Virus record (IMG/VR): IMGVR_UViG_3300044645_001220
Coordinates: 1 to 59,638 of that record
Strand: one strand, 5' to 3'
Source of the DNA: a virus
DNA: 59,638 nucleotides
Numbering within the stretch: the first letter of the stretch is position 1; every line of letters begins with the position of its first letter. This document shows, piece by piece, positions 5,876-53,118 of this stretch. The notes beneath the pieces are model-generated. The model made no database searches. It had not been told where the DNA came from and worked only from the letters and a program-made list of their open reading frames with translations. The translations under genes were made by a program, and so were the position numbers.

Positions 5876-7246
5876 ATGGATCTTCGCGACTTACTTGCCG
5901 ACAAGTCAGGCATCGACGACGGTACTGTCGGGACCGCACCAGTGCAGGCGACTCCAACCAAGTTCAGCCTGCACCATGACGAATGGTCGCAGCGACGGGG
6001 TTCCGAATTGTTCCAGGGCAGCGAGGAATTGCAGGGTATCTTCTCCGCTGTTGACGGCGACATCGCAGAGACGGCGACGACCGACTTCCGTGGTGGTGCT
6101 TTCGAGTATCGCCCCAAGCAGTCGGACAACTGCACCAATCCGCGACTCGCCAAGTACATGCAAGCCCTCATGGATACCGAGGAGTTCCGCCAGCTTCGCA
6201 CTGTCACAGTCGGCGACGAGAATGCCAGCGAGATTGCGGCCCTTAAGTTTGCGTCAGGGTTCGCAAAAGTCATGGAGGAAGTCACCGAGGAGCAGGCCGC
6301 TACCGATAAGGGCGAGGTCGCTATCGACGTTCAGGCTGTTCGTGCCGCGATGGACGCCAGCCAAGCCATCGATCAGTACGAGGATGTTCGCGACTCCCTT
6401 CCCGGTATGGGTGGCGATCCCGCTGGGGCCAAGCCAATTACGCAGGAAGCAGTAGCCGGTTTGTTCGGCAAGATCCGCAAGAGTTCGATGCTCATGGGAA
6501 TCATGCGACTGGCAGGACGCTACCGCCGCATCGCCCAGTCTGCCCAGCGCCGCAAGGTTCCAGTCGGCATCGACGATGTTGTCGGCGTGCATCAGTCAGG
6601 CGACATCGGAAAGCTACTGCCGTCAGAGCTTGGCCGATTGTCCGACCCGATGTTCGAGGACGATACCATGCGACGTATCGTAGAGAACGCCGCCCAGTGT
6701 CGCGAGCATTGCGGTAACGAGTCAGTAGGCAAGGGTCCGATTGTCGTGATCGTTGACGAGACTGGCAGCATGACCAACAACGATAACATCTACCACGCAA
6801 AAGCGTTCGCCCTCAGTCTGTACTGGGTGGCGAGCAGCCAGAAGCGATGGTGCTGTCTGGTTGGCTACGCCGGGGAGGGTATGAATGTTCTTGTCATCCC
6901 TCCTGGTGCCAACAAGACCGACCAAGTTCTTGAGTGGCTGGAGCATTTCGAGAACGGTGCAACGAATCTTTGCATCCCAGTCGATAAGCTACCCGCCGCA
7001 TGGAGTTCGTTCGGCTGTCCGAAGGGGCAGACCGACATCGTTCAGATCACCGACGCCATCTGCCGCATCCCTGCGGAGACTGTCGCCAGATTCAACACCT
7101 GGAAAAAGCAGGAGCAGGTTCGGTTCCTCACGATCGTAATCGCCGAGGCAGCAGGAGAAGCCGCCAAGATTAGCGACGATTGCTGGGTGTATAATTCAAT
7201 GGCCGCAGGCAGTGACGCCATCAACGACATTCTCAGAAAGGTGTAA
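5876..7246 (+). CDS. ViaA/CoxE-like VWA-domain protein
   Basis: 456 residues. The N-terminal half is helical with acidic stretches. The VWA domain begins near residue 285 with VVIVDETGSM, where Asp294, Thr296 and Ser298 form the MIDAS DxTxS, and Thr363 (NGATNL) is the third metal ligand. Spacing and neighbour match ViaA, the partner of RavA. VWA-MoxR pairs use the MIDAS to grip a client that the ATPase remodels. The start ATG follows AGGAGAATCACT. The next gene starts two bases after the stop, so translation is coupled. Confidence 0.85.
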   Translation: MDLRDLLADKSGIDDGTVGTAPVQATPTKFSLHHDEWSQRRGSELFQGSEELQGIFSAVDGDIAETATTDFRGGAFEYRPKQSDNCTNPRLAKYMQALMDTEEFRQLRTVTVGDENASEIAALKFASGFAKVMEEVTEEQAATDKGEVAIDVQAVRAAMDASQAIDQYEDVRDSLPGMGGDPAGAKPITQEAVAGLFGKIRKSSMLMGIMRLAGRYRRIAQSAQRRKVPVGIDDVVGVHQSGDIGKLLPSELGRLSDPMFEDDTMRRIVENAAQCREHCGNESVGKGPIVVIVDETGSMTNNDNIYHAKAFALSLYWVASSQKRWCCLVGYAGEGMNVLVIPPGANKTDQVLEWLEHFENGATNLCIPVDKLPAAWSSFGCPKGQTDIVQITDAICRIPAETVARFNTWKKQEQVRFLTIVIAEAAGEAAKISDDCWVYNSMAAGSDAINDILRKV

Positions 7247-9210: not shown

Positions 9211-10170
9211 TCACGGCGAGATCATCTGAAACTCTTTCGGCTTGAACTGCTTTCTCGCTCGACGCTGACCGATCGCGAGTGCCTCATGGAGGTTGTGAGA
9301 GGCAAGCATCGCCGCCGCAATATCGGGACGGCTTGACGCCAGACATTCGCTGACCTTCTGGTAGTTCGCATACACTTCTGGATTGCGTAGCTGGTTGGGG
9401 TCAGTCACCTTCAGGATTCGGTAGCACAGTTCAGGTGCAATCATCCTCCTGAAGCCGTTGCCGTGGGCAAACCCCTCGGTTTCTCTATTGCGATTGGCAG
9501 GCATCAGGTTGATATGCTTGCTGCATTCTGCATCAATCTCGTGGCACGTTCGGTATTCGAGCAGCCACCATTCAGCGAGCTTCTTTGCAGCCTGCCTTGC
9601 TGGTTCGTCCCAGTACAAAACGCGACCGCTCTTTTTTCCCTCAACCCTTATGCCGAATGGGCAGTTCTTCCCACGAAACGCACTTGCATATACGCCCATG
9701 CGGATTCTTTGCTGGAGTCCCTGCCTCGTGCGCGAAGAGATCATCGACGCCTCAAGCTGCGCGAGAGCAGCCATCATCGACAGCATGAAGTCGCCCATCG
9801 GAGTACCGACTGACACGCTACAGCCACGCATATCGACGATATGCACGCTGATTTGATTGCTCTTGAACCACGACATCAGGCGAACAAAGTCTTCCATCGA
9901 TCGCCACATTCGGTCCAGCTTGTCGATAATCAGGTGATCCCCAGGCTTCATGACTGCAATGAGAGCCTTCCCGGCAGGGCGCTCAGCGAATCGAAACTTC
10001 GACGCCGAGCATTGCTTGCCGTCCTGGTGAATCCCTCCCCACGCTACGCCACTGGCCTTCAACATCATGCCGTAGTAGCCCTCGATCCGGTGGGCTTGGG
10101 CAGAAATCGATTCCCCCTCCTGGAATCCCTCCAAGTGGCTAATCCTTGCGTACCCGTATGCCGTCGCCAT
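9211..10170 (-). CDS. Serine recombinase (resolvase/invertase family)
   Basis: 319 residues. The N-terminal catalytic domain shows YARIS (nucleophile Ser11), RPAGKALI, DHLIIDKLDRMWRS (Arg87, Arg90) and SVGTPMGDFMLSMMAALAQLE, the E-helix region. The C-terminal part of about 170 residues has no Cys-rich zinc ribbon, so it is not a typical large serine integrase and may carry a divergent DNA-binding domain. It could integrate the phage, invert DNA or resolve multimers. It is co-transcribed behind a small HTH gene whose end overlaps its start by 32 bp, resembling a recombinase with its control factor. The catalytic assignment is firm. Confidence 0.9.
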   Translation of the reverse strand: MATAYGYARISHLEGFQEGESISAQAHRIEGYYGMMLKASGVAWGGIHQDGKQCSASKFRFAERPAGKALIAVMKPGDHLIIDKLDRMWRSMEDFVRLMSWFKSNQISVHIVDMRGCSVSVGTPMGDFMLSMMAALAQLEASMISSRTRQGLQQRIRMGVYASAFRGKNCPFGIRVEGKKSGRVLYWDEPARQAAKKLAEWWLLEYRTCHEIDAECSKHINLMPANRNRETEGFAHGNGFRRMIAPELCYRILKVTDPNQLRNPEVYANYQKVSECLASSRPDIAAAMLASHNLHEALAIGQRRARKQFKPKEFQMISP

Positions 10171-50401: not shown

Positions 50402-50508
50402 GTTCATCTATTCCCGCACGTTCGAGACATGGCGTGTCGGGTAGGACTCCGGGACGATCGTGCCAGCCGGACAATAAATATGGGACGATTTCGGGATTCT
50501 CCTTTTGG

Positions 50509-50574
50509 TTGCCCGTCGTCTAGCGAGGATACTGAAGCGATTCAGAGACGCAGGAATCGACGCCTGCCGGGTGC
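50509..50574 (+). other. Degenerate tRNA-like structure
   Basis: The D-arm bases TCGTCTAGCGAGGAT are typical of tRNA-Glu. Acceptor (TTGCCCG/CGGGTGC) and T-stem (GCAGG/CCTGC) are formed with mismatches. The anticodon arm is CTGAA/TTCAG closed by a GCGA tetraloop, so there is no anticodon. It is a tRNA pseudogene or tRNA-like decoy. Confidence 0.35.
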
Positions 50575-50803: not shown

Positions 50804-50899
50804 GGGTCGGTGGAGTAGACGAGCGGCATTGCCGGAAGCGGGAGTTGGTACCTGCGGCTGCGTCGGCCCTCTTCGCGGGTTCGAATCCCGCCCGACCTG
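50804..50899 (+). pseudogene. tRNA-like pseudogene with intact T-arm
   Basis: GGGTCGG (50804-50810) pairs with CCGACCT (50892-50898), and the T-arm GCGGG-TTCGAAT-CCCGC is perfect. A D-arm-like CGGG-AGTTGGTA-CCTG is at 50839-50854. The spacing is wrong and no proper anticodon loop with U33 can be drawn in 96 nt, so it is not a working tRNA. Confidence 0.5.
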
Positions 50900-50902
50900 A
50901 TG
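50874..50902 (+). repeat. tRNA 3'-end repeat, copy 1
   Basis: T-arm plus acceptor 3' strand. The 29 bases from CGCGGGTTCG to ACCTGATG recur exactly at 52190-52218, and the TCCCGCCCGACCTGAT part also at 51289 and 52842. Confidence 0.85.
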
Positions 50903-50909
50903 AGAAGTG

Positions 50910-51018
50910 TATAACGTCAGCAATCAGCGGGCCGCAACAATTTCAGTTTGAATAAGGATAGTTTCATGGAATCAGAGAATCAGGTTGATGCGGCTCCGTC
51001 TGCATTGCGTTGTTCTAC
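50910..51018 (+). repeat. attC-like site 1
   Basis: Starts TATAACGTCAGCAAT and ends GCATTGCGTTGTTCTAC, the two halves being imperfectly complementary through CAGCGGGCCGC and GCGGCTCCGTCTG with single-base bulges, as in integron attC sites. The start of the next gene lies within it. Confidence 0.55.
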
Positions 51019-51271
51019 TACCAAGCTATGCGATTTTGTGCATGAGCTTGAATCCGCGTTGAGCTTCGTTACAGATGAATGTCGCCTCACAAGTCAAGTC
51101 GAAGTTTTCTACGAGATGCGAGATGGTGAAGGGTTCATGCGAGTTACGTGCAAGGAAGATCGTGAAGACGCAGAAGCATATCGACGGTTGAAGCGAGGTT
51201 TAGCCGAATCGCACAAAGCCAGCCTTGGCAAGGATTGTGGAGTTTGGGATTCGCGGAATGTAGGTCAGTAG
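50966..51271 (+). CDS. Cassette-borne hypothetical protein
   Basis: 101 residues from an ATG after AAGGATAGTTTC, inside the attC-like site, so its first 17 or so residues are encoded by that site. A TTG at 50948 is an alternative. Helical, charged; not recognised. Single gene between tRNA-end repeats. Confidence 0.55.
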   Translation: MESENQVDAAPSALRCSTTKLCDFVHELESALSFVTDECRLTSQVEVFYEMRDGEGFMRVTCKEDREDAEAYRRLKRGLAESHKASLGKDCGVWDSRNVGQ

Positions 51272-51284
51272 AACAAGCTTTATA

Positions 51285-51355
51285 CAGTTCCCGCCCGACC
51301 TGATTTGGATTGCGTGAACTGATCGAATTTTTCGAAGCGTTGAAAGGAGATTGCG
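51285..51355 (+). repeat. Cassette leader repeat with tRNA end, copy 2
   Basis: About 71 bp running from CAGTTCCCGCCCGACC through TCGAATTTTT to TTGAAAGGAG, ending at the next start codon. About four fifths identical to 52838-52908. Confidence 0.8.
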
Positions 51356-52162
51356 ATGAGCGAACCAAACGACGTTATCGGCAACGCCGATTCATCACAT
51401 TGTTCTGCGGTCTTGAACTATGGAGGCGGCAGACAGACAGCAGCAATTATCGTGTTGATTTTGCGTGGTGTAATTGAGCGTCCAGGCAAGATCATCATGG
51501 CAAACACAGGGCGAGAGAATCAGTCGACATGGGATTATCTGGCGAAGCATGTTCAACCGGCCTTGGACGGCATTGGAATGCAGGTCGAAGTAATCGACCC
51601 ACCAAAGATTCCGTTGCTGACATACGGCGCAGACGATAAGCCAATCATTCCGGTTTACACGGCAGATGGAAAGATGAGCCCGTTTTGCAGTGGTAACTGG
51701 AAGCGGGACCGAATGAACAGTTACCTAGCGTCGATAAAATGGCCAGGGCGTGAGCGATGGATAGGATTTTCCGCAAACGAAAAAAAGCGAATTAATCGAA
51801 TGGTTTCATCCGAGAGACCAGACAAATACACGTTTCGTTTTCCGTTGGCGGAAATGTTCATCACTACTGACGACTGCTTAGCAATCGTCGAAAAATGGGG
51901 CTGGCCACAGCCGAGCGTCAGCTCGTGCTGGATGTGCCCGCACAAGAAAAACGAAGAATGGGCAAGGGTTCGCGACAGCGAGCCCGAACACTGGGAAGAG
52001 GCTTGCCGCATAGATGAGGAATTGCGGGAGGAAGATTTGGAGCGCGGCGGAACAGGCGTGTGGCTGCACCATTCGCGGGTTCCGTTGCGTCAAGCAGATT
52101 TGAGCGTTGCCGAGCCGTTGCGGGTGGAGCGTCAATGCAGCCTCGGCATGTGTTTTGTTTAG
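51356..52162 (+). CDS. PAPS-reductase/PP-loop family protein
   Basis: 268 residues. The PP-loop is NYGGGRQTAAI (normally SGGKDS, here altered), followed by ANTGRE, a Cys cluster CWMCPHKKNEEW, and WIGFSANEKKRI, as in phage PAPS reductase-like and DndC-like proteins. Members reduce or transfer sulfur, or modify nucleic acids; activity here is unknown. The last 25 or so residues run through a TGCCGAG/CTCGGCA inverted repeat and look like a cassette-end read-through. Confidence 0.78.
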   Translation: MSEPNDVIGNADSSHCSAVLNYGGGRQTAAIIVLILRGVIERPGKIIMANTGRENQSTWDYLAKHVQPALDGIGMQVEVIDPPKIPLLTYGADDKPIIPVYTADGKMSPFCSGNWKRDRMNSYLASIKWPGRERWIGFSANEKKRINRMVSSERPDKYTFRFPLAEMFITTDDCLAIVEKWGWPQPSVSSCWMCPHKKNEEWARVRDSEPEHWEEACRIDEELREEDLERGGTGVWLHHSRVPLRQADLSVAEPLRVERQCSLGMCFV

Positions 52163-52189
52163 ATCCGCATAACAATCGTTAGACTGAAA

Positions 52190-52218
52190 CGCGGGTTCGA
52201 ATCCCGCCCGACCTGATG
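52190..52218 (+). repeat. tRNA 3'-end repeat, copy 3
   Basis: Exact copy of 50874-50902, followed by TGAATTGCATAACGCTCGG, similar to the start of attC-like site 1. Just upstream is GCATAAC-AATC-GTTAGAC, which resembles integron core sites. Confidence 0.8.
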
Positions 52219-52270
52219 TGAATTGCATAACGCTCGGATTCACCGAGCCGAAAGGAAACAGGTAACAAGA

Positions 52271-52483
52271 ATGAGCAAGTTCAGACGGATTTCAGAGTTA
52301 GAAGCAGCGGAGATTGCGAACGACAGCGAGCAAGGTCGGATGCTGGTGATGGAGCGTGATTTCCTCCGTGATCTTGTCGCGGCAAAGGACGAATACATTG
52401 CGTGCTACAAGACAGGCAAGCGACCAAGCGAGAAGTTGTTTGCAAAGTTGGAGCGCCTCACTGCGTTGGTGATTGCGGACTAG
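52271..52483 (+). CDS. Cassette-borne small helical protein
   Basis: 70 residues, highly charged alpha-helical; not recognised. Weak SD (CAGGTAACAAG). It lies directly upstream of the best attC-like site. Confidence 0.55.
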   Translation: MSKFRRISELEAAEIANDSEQGRMLVMERDFLRDLVAAKDEYIACYKTGKRPSEKLFAKLERLTALVIAD

Positions 52484-52487
52484 GTAA

Positions 52488-52577
52488 GACGAACGCTGGC
52501 AATCACGGGGCCGCGACCGTGACAGCCAGCCATGAGAAAAGACGTTGTCGCGGCTCCCGTGCATTGCTTTGTTCATC
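52488..52577 (+). repeat. attC-like site 2 (best)
   Basis: Ends GACGAAC and GTTCATC are complementary at 6 of 7 bases. Inner arms CACGGGGCCGCGAC (52504-52517) and GTCGCGGCTCCCGTG (52547-52561) pair with one extrahelical base, and GCAAT/ATTGC adds another pair with a second bulge. Two bulges on one strand, a 90-bp length and a terminal GTT are the folded-attC layout. No integron integrase gene is present. Confidence 0.65.
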
Positions 52578-52600
52578 GTTCTTTGGAGATTTGATTGATT

Positions 52601-52816
52601 ATGACGAGTCGAAGAGTTGGTGAGTTGGTCGAAACCATCAATGCGGCTTTGTTTGAGTTGCGAGAAATCAAGAAGCGAAAGCCGCAATTTCGCGTTGAAG
52701 TTCGAGACGAACCCGGCAGCATTTTGAATGGATACAGAGAGGGCGACATCACTTTTGATGAAGCAAAGGAACGGCTGGAACGTGTGTTTCTCAGTCAGTA
52801 TGGAAGCAACGCCTAG
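52601..52816 (+). CDS. Cassette-borne small protein
   Basis: 71 residues starting 23 bp after attC-like site 2, after TTGGAGATTTGA. Helix-strand-helix; not recognised. A TTG at 52595 is an alternative start. Confidence 0.55.
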   Translation: MTSRRVGELVETINAALFELREIKKRKPQFRVEVRDEPGSILNGYREGDITFDEAKERLERVFLSQYGSNA

Positions 52817-52837
52817 ATTCGATGAACAATCGTTATG

Positions 52838-52908
52838 CAGATCCCGCCCGACCTGATTTTGATTGCGGGAACGGTTCGAATTTTTAGAAGGGTTGAAAGG
52901 AGGTAGCG
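52838..52908 (+). repeat. Cassette leader repeat with tRNA end, copy 4
   Basis: Partner of 51285-51355; preceded by GATGAAC-AATC-GTTATGC, again like paired integron core sites. Ends in AAAGGAGG and the next start. Confidence 0.8.
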
Positions 52909-53118
52909 ATGGCTGACGGATTTCGAGGCATCCCCGGCGTGCCGGAGGGGTGGGAGTTGGTGGAGTTCCGCACTGTGCGCAAGGGTGACTGGATCTTGTC
53001 TGACCAAGGCTGGCCGACGCTATGGCAAAGCGATGGAACTGGCGATCGTGGTGGAATATTTGCGATCATCCGCGAGACCGAAAATCGTGAGGGCGTTGAG
53101 GTGACAGATGGCGAGTGA
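52909..53118 (+). CDS. Hypothetical phage protein
   Basis: 69 residues after a strong AAAGGAGG. GIPGVPEGWELVEFRTVRKGDWIL resembles short SH3-like phage proteins seen often in environmental phages. It overlaps the next gene by 11 bp, so from here on the genes are packed as an operon. Confidence 0.6.
   Translation: MADGFRGIPGVPEGWELVEFRTVRKGDWILSDQGWPTLWQSDGTGDRGGIFAIIRETENREGVEVTDGE

Follow-up and report, generated by a model that had tools for sequence, protein, structure and literature searches.

A probable integron cassette cluster with reversed genes in a phage whose host is most likely a planctomycete

Integrons are bacterial gene-capture platforms whose occurrence in phages has been described only recently. 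Here, we analyze a candidate integron cassette array in a window of 59,638 bases, the whole of IMG/VR virus record IMGVR_UViG_3300044645_001220, which is possibly a fragment. The array comprises small genes, two attC sites, and repeated tRNA 3′ ends. A sequence-only reading of this DNA had described four copies of a tRNA T-arm/acceptor end separating single promoterless genes, and TCCCGCCCGACCTGAT does occur exactly four times, starting at 50886, 51289, 52202, and 52842. A consensus scan, which is weak evidence, found no plus-strand promoter within the array, in line with part of that description; the genes are not all single, as two lie between repeats 3 and 4. The features of the locus are as follows.

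50804..50901, plus strand: degenerate full-length tRNA-like element, repeat copy 1 (from the sequence)
50909..51018, minus strand: attC 1, planctomycete type; 61.9 bits, E 4.3e-15 (covariance model); fold z -3.3 on this strand; R'' GTAGAAC, R' GTTATAC
50915..51273, minus strand: cassette C, 359 bp; starts G|TTCTAC, ends in attC 1; R''/start complementarity 7/7; gene antisense to attC
50966..51271, plus strand: cassette C gene, 101 amino acids, no assigned function; start codon and AAGGA motif within the attC 1 loop
51268..51285: attI-like half site/cassette C junction, GTAGAAC-AAGC-TTTATAC (from the sequence)
51274..52172, minus strand: PAPS-reductase unit (gene, leader, and tRNA end); short core sites on both sides; R''/start 5/7; putative boundary
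51289..51304, plus strand: tRNA 3′-end repeat, copy 2 (exact match)
51356..52162, plus strand: PAPS-reductase-family protein, 268 amino acids; phrog_424, E 7.7e-33
52167..52184: short attI-like core GCATAAC-AATC-GTTAGAC (exact match)
52173..52230, minus strand: 58-bp unit, a tRNA T-arm/acceptor end with a core site on each side; R''/start 5/7; putative boundary
52202..52217, plus strand: tRNA 3′-end repeat, copy 3 (exact match)
52231..52493, minus strand: putative cassette B, attC reduced to the 3′ arm GCATAACGCTCGGATTCACCGAGCCG; no model match
52271..52483, plus strand: cassette B gene, 70 amino acids, no assigned function (open reading frame)
52488..52577, minus strand: attC 2, planctomycete type; 61.0 bits, E 7.5e-15 (covariance model); fold z -3.3; R'' GATGAAC, R' GTTCGTC
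52494..52826, minus strand: cassette A, 333 bp; starts G|TTCATC, ends in attC 2; R''/start complementarity 7/7; gene antisense to attC
52532-52594, plus strand: 20-codon open reading frame upstream of the cassette A gene; start inside the attC 2 loop
52601..52816, plus strand: cassette A gene, ~71 amino acids, no assigned function (open reading frame)
52821..52838: attI-like half site/cassette A junction, GATGAAC-AATC-GTTATGC (exact match)
52842..52857, plus strand: tRNA 3′-end repeat, copy 4 (exact match)

The two attC sites lie 1.5 kb apart on the minus strand, with the cassette genes on the plus strand. The bulged arm AACAAN{2,4}ATGCANNCGGAGCCGC, used as a search seed in 84,980 bacterial and archaeal genomes, returned 32 loci, mostly in Planctomycetota. 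Our attC calls rest on our own covariance model, which was trained on 22 clear attCs aligned from genome assemblies, mostly planctomycete, with the window sequence excluded; one training row (L023) turned out to be on a phage-like contig. An attC model was a check proposed by the sequence-only reading, and it gave the window sites 61.9 and 61.0 bits rather than low scores. Its best plus-strand match, at attC 2, reached only 13.6 bits, and these one-strand scores identify the sites as planctomycete-type attCs of known direction. Both hairpins are more stable than dinucleotide shuffles (z of -2.8 to -3.7), and their previously noted coordinates were right to within one base. The extrahelical bases all lie on one arm, like those of planctomycete attCs; there are two in attC 2, as had been described for both sites, but three in attC 1. 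Among 27 aligned phage attCs, 89.5% of the cells are paired, both sides change in 19 of 25 pairs, and the covariation score is 0.457 versus 0.141 for shuffled alignments, figures biased toward structure because the alignment was fitted to the model. A generic finder for attC sites, written by hand with criteria that were too strict, returned zero sites. Three candidate attC carriers (L072, L077, and L079) were discarded as chance matches to the attC DNA pattern.

In a circular cassette, the R'' box complements the first bases of its own cassette, both coming from one circle. Bacterial arrays follow this rule: 65 of 72 consecutive cassettes match at 6 to 7 of 7 positions, with a mean of 6.43 versus a shuffled mean of 4.75 (the largest of 2000 shuffles was 5.10). 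Cassettes A and C of the window match at all seven positions, as does a cassette of relative G001 (G|TTCCAC start, GTGGAAC R'', 7/7). The Pfam and PHROG searches gave no match for the cassette B or cassette C protein. In relative G002, a unit between GTTCTGT and ACAGAAC (7/7) carries a tRNA gene scoring 48.2 bits; this gene (L047 12783-12885, minus strand) stands alone between two short core sites, like a cassette.

The motifs GCATAAC-AATC-GTTAGAC and GATGAAC-AATC-GTTATGC, which had been likened to integron core sites, are present exactly as written. By resemblance, they would be attI-like cores or junctions with them, because a similar layout is found at G001, G370, G365, and L058. The short core is GTATAACAAGCGTTATAC. 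With its cassette removed and the flanks joined, G001 reads GTATAACGCTTG|TTATAC, in which two core boxes form an inverted repeat. Similar cores are found at the array starts of other phages (G370, GCATAACGACCAAG|TT; G365, TGATAATTCAAAG|TT) and in a planctomycete attI next to intI (L058, GATAATAACAAG|TTATGC). Among viral contigs, further attI-like sites of the form AACAAGCGTTATACANAG were found only in L001 and L002, along with three chance matches without attC.

Pattern and protein scans identified eight related viral contigs. The gene downstream of the array is kept in relatives (79% identical in G001, 82% in G006, and 65% in G002), and the upstream gene is 49% identical in G001. The tested cassette genes differ, the sole exception being one membrane protein common to G002 and G006. 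Since the flanks are conserved and the cassette genes are not shared, we conclude from sequence comparison that cassettes are gained and lost at one locus, rather than forming a block that is fixed among relatives, the outcome that the sequence-only reading had set against its own proposal. In a prophage-like region of G397, the contig end was reached before the array locus. Could the array instead be a relic, that is, integron pieces acquired by chance through illegitimate or homologous recombination, no longer recombining, and spread by phage mosaicism? IntI was not found in the record, the attC of cassette B is truncated, and illegitimate uptake was raised for other phages by Qi et al. (PMC9892861), all of which would fit. 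A relic is nevertheless very unlikely, given two intact attCs with exact R''/start complementarity, cassette content that is fully different among the relatives compared, bar one shared protein, and arrays of up to eight attCs in other phages.

The IntI profile TIGR02249 had no match in the window record, which may be a fragment; the missing IntI had been noted before. The tyrosine recombinase family PF00589 had no match in nine records, the window and its eight relatives. A serine recombinase with a Resolvase domain (2.7e-26) is encoded at 9211-10170 on the minus strand and is possibly the phage integrase; no tie between it and the tRNA-end repeats was established. Resolvase-domain proteins are also encoded by G370 and G363/G365. 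The portal protein has a homologue in a Planctomycetota genome (37% identical over ~680 amino acids, E=2.4e-143), and IntI scored above the curated cut-off in 7 of 10 planctomycete genomes tested; the host of the phage is most likely a member of Planctomycetota. An annotated phage collection had no match to the array region or to the portal protein.

Because the array lacks its own IntI, it falls into the category of clusters of attC sites lacking an integrase (CALINs). The scores from the attC model, the R''/start complementarity expected of circular cassettes, the junctions at G|TT, the exchange of cassettes between relatives, and IntI not being found strongly favor the proposal of the sequence-only reading, and we consider it very probable that the array is a CALIN in a phage most likely infecting Planctomycetota, with IntI coming from the host or another element. 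The simplest reading of the enzyme would be a host IntI acting in trans. Several points weigh on the other side. Cassette recombination is something that we infer; the core spacing in the window and other phages is one base off that of the bacterial attIs compared; the attC of cassette B is truncated; and the PAPS-reductase and tRNA-arm units match at 5/7 only. No phage cassette genes were found in bacterial arrays: the phage cassette proteins had essentially zero matches in the arrays compared, and the cassette C protein had one marginal match across 343 Planctomycetota genomes.

The tRNA ends are less easily placed. The TCCCGCCCGACCTGAT copies are embedded in longer direct repeats (88 and 64 nt, with 83 to 86% identity). 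Neither ARAGORN nor Rfam recognized a tRNA in the window, which marks its copy 1 as degenerate. The initial copies of G002 and G003, which are full, reach tRNA scores of 39.0 and 41.7 bits; later copies consist of 3′ ends only. This is the pattern that tandem tRNA integration would give, with a full-length tRNA-like copy 1 followed by 3′ ends, and it would suit a tRNA-targeted site-specific recombination system in which every unit integrates at a tRNA 3′ end, a copy of which stays behind, making the units tandem mini integrative elements and their attC likeness secondary. Several findings count against such a system: a tyrosine recombinase was not found in the window and eight relatives, the same cassettes occur in other phages without these tRNA ends, and the cassette junctions lie at G|TT, 13 to 29 bases from the tRNA ends, which thus appear not to be the cassette crossover site. 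We give this explanation very little credence and find no support for the related suggestion of a new recombination system using tRNA ends, since the boundaries lie within attC and attI-like cores, away from the repeats. The cassette cluster reading accounts for the repeats only partly; our guess is that they are probably passengers that were duplicated as core-bounded units moved or recombined. Because the units hold unrelated genes, we rejected tandem duplication as the only source of the repeats. Other elements resemble tRNAs in their good acceptor and T-arm but have aberrant middles; they lie at L001 7113-7217 and 9757-9830 and at 50505-50570 of the window. ARAGORN rejects nearly all of them, and these phages possibly harbor a family of such degenerate structures.

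Ordinary RNA hairpins that act as terminators or in translation control in a phage operon and are attC-like only in look would explain the overlap of the hairpins with start codons and ribosome-binding sites, and also the terminator-like patterns found inside both sites. Against this stand one-strand model scores near E 1e-14, extrahelical bases matching those of bacterial attCs, and an exact complementarity to a distant cassette end that no local hairpin explains. This reading is left with next to no weight, and present data largely exclude an RNA hairpin as the sole role of the sites.

The unusual part of the array, unnoticed in the sequence-only reading, is that its genes are antisense to attC and run in the same direction as neighboring phage genes. 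In bacterial arrays, the longest open reading frames give 64 genes with attC versus 6 against. Because the length of the longest frame alone poorly predicts the strand of a cassette gene, codon scores and Pfam matches were added; the codon score, which is noisier, gives 55 with versus 17 against attC (n=72). By the same score, antisense cassettes outnumber sense cassettes 19 to 2 in phages, a difference from bacterial arrays with a Fisher P of 4e-8 that is optimistic because neighboring cassettes are non-independent. One of the two sense calls is wrong, since an MT-A70 methyltransferase domain (E=2.4e-22) is encoded on the antisense strand. The viral scan had revealed more phages with two to eight such attCs (G363/G365, G364, G366, G368, and G370). 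G363 and G365 are near-identical; the other array phages share at most eight open reading frames with the window and few among themselves. This recurrence across phages that share few genes is stronger evidence than the P value. Pfam domains above the cut-off were found in six antisense cassette proteins: PAPS reductase, ASCH, MT-A70, DUF4326, MUG113/T5orf172 (GIY-YIG type), and HNH; this domain scan covered antisense cassette proteins only.

The reversed layout predicts that attC acts as a leader and start site. In 10 of 27 phage attCs versus 6 of 106 bacterial attCs (near-duplicate G363 was left out of this count), the site itself contains a motif resembling a ribosome-binding site together with a start codon, and the frame exits via the stem. 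In the window, the proposal that genes start or end within the sites stands for starts (50966 in site 1 and the 20-codon frame at 52532 in site 2), and no gene was found to end there. The first residues are stem-encoded: MESENQVDAAPSALRC in the window, MRSENGRSSAPSASRC in G002, and MTTENGQSSAPSASRC in G365 and G366. Thus, many phage cassette genes would owe their ribosome-binding site and first codons to attC.

Some phages carry an IntI of their own. The 44-kb contig L023 (G361:C12), binned with a Solirubrobacterales metagenome-assembled genome, has terminase and portal genes and an IntI scoring 378 bits (cut-off, 265); it also has a G|TT junction with 7/7 complementarity and one attC whose antisense gene starts in the loop. 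Related integrase genes were found in 80 viral contigs; two of these, L131 and L113, have several attCs that are of another type and lie opposite to the intI strand. L131 further has a PAPS-reductase gene running antisense to its attCs and a lambda-type integrase that adjoins intI. These cases hint that the inverted layout extends beyond planctomycete phages. The non-planctomycete attC arrays with IntI span 355-5591 in L131 and 2501-6396 in L113.

Such consistent reversal in phages sharing few genes points to selection, not accident, and suggests that phages adapted the bacterial integron system to their own operons. We lean slightly toward the view that phages evolved an inverted integron platform, in which genes lie antisense to attC and co-directional with the phage operon and attC serves as a translation-start module, whose loop holds the start codon and ribosome-binding site and whose stem encodes an N-terminal peptide. 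Found repeatedly in phages with few genes in common, some of which have an IntI of their own, this layout would shuffle small accessory genes, e.g., those for methyltransferases, nucleases, and PAPS-reductase-family proteins. During infection or lysogeny, IntI from the host (or another element) would act on a circular cassette and recombine its attC, folded from the minus strand, with the phage attI-like core, making the array a variable site for small phage genes; phage read-through transcription would express the cassette genes, and attC would double as a 5′ leader giving the ribosome-binding site and first codons. Phages would thereby gain a route to swap small accessory genes and trade cassettes with host integrons.

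PAPS-reductase-family genes lie in the arrays of three phages (window 51356-52162, L097 11385-12185, and L131 3718-4479), and their recurrence suggests a selected function. Elsewhere in the window, two Twister-P5 ribozymes on the plus strand (2197-2260 and 2894-2956; 48.7 and 46.6 bits, above the Rfam gathering score) lie ~700 bases apart. A candidate type I hammerhead in L054 (G006; 6378-6431, plus strand) scores 33.5 bits against a gathering score of 34.

CALINs have been reported in virulent and temperate phages, and phage attCs recombine with IntI1 in assays (Qi et al. 2023, PMC9892861); the planctomycete attC class has also been published (PMC8352920). The open-licence literature that we searched, a scope outside which most subscription papers and all preprints fall, holds no description of the antisense-gene rule or of attC-loop starts in phages. 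Thus, phage CALINs are already known, and the antisense orientation of the cassette genes looks new. A complete integron needs intI and attI in one element; in the window, intI was not found and the cores are attI-like by resemblance only. A typical cassette gene runs with its attC, a usual but non-defining trait, whereas those of the window and most scored phage cassettes are antisense. Like tRNA-targeted integrative elements (tyrosine-recombinase islands), the array repeats a tRNA 3′ end in each unit after one fuller copy; unlike them, it has units down to 58 bp and junctions outside the tRNA end, and a tyrosine integrase was not found. With the chromosomal integrons of Planctomycetota (Pirellulaceae and others), the array shares the attC sequence, the extrahelical pattern, and the R''/start rule; there, genes run with attC and intI is present in most genomes tested, whereas the phage genes are antisense and IntI was not found. 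Closest in kind are the phage CALINs of Qi et al. (PMC9892861), which are also attC clusters without IntI in phage genomes, have attCs that bacterial IntI can use, and carry small cargo genes that include DNA methyltransferases. Typical members of that set run with attC, and one phage has divergent attCs; the window array differs in its consistently antisense genes, its attC-loop starts, and its interleaved tRNA 3′ ends.
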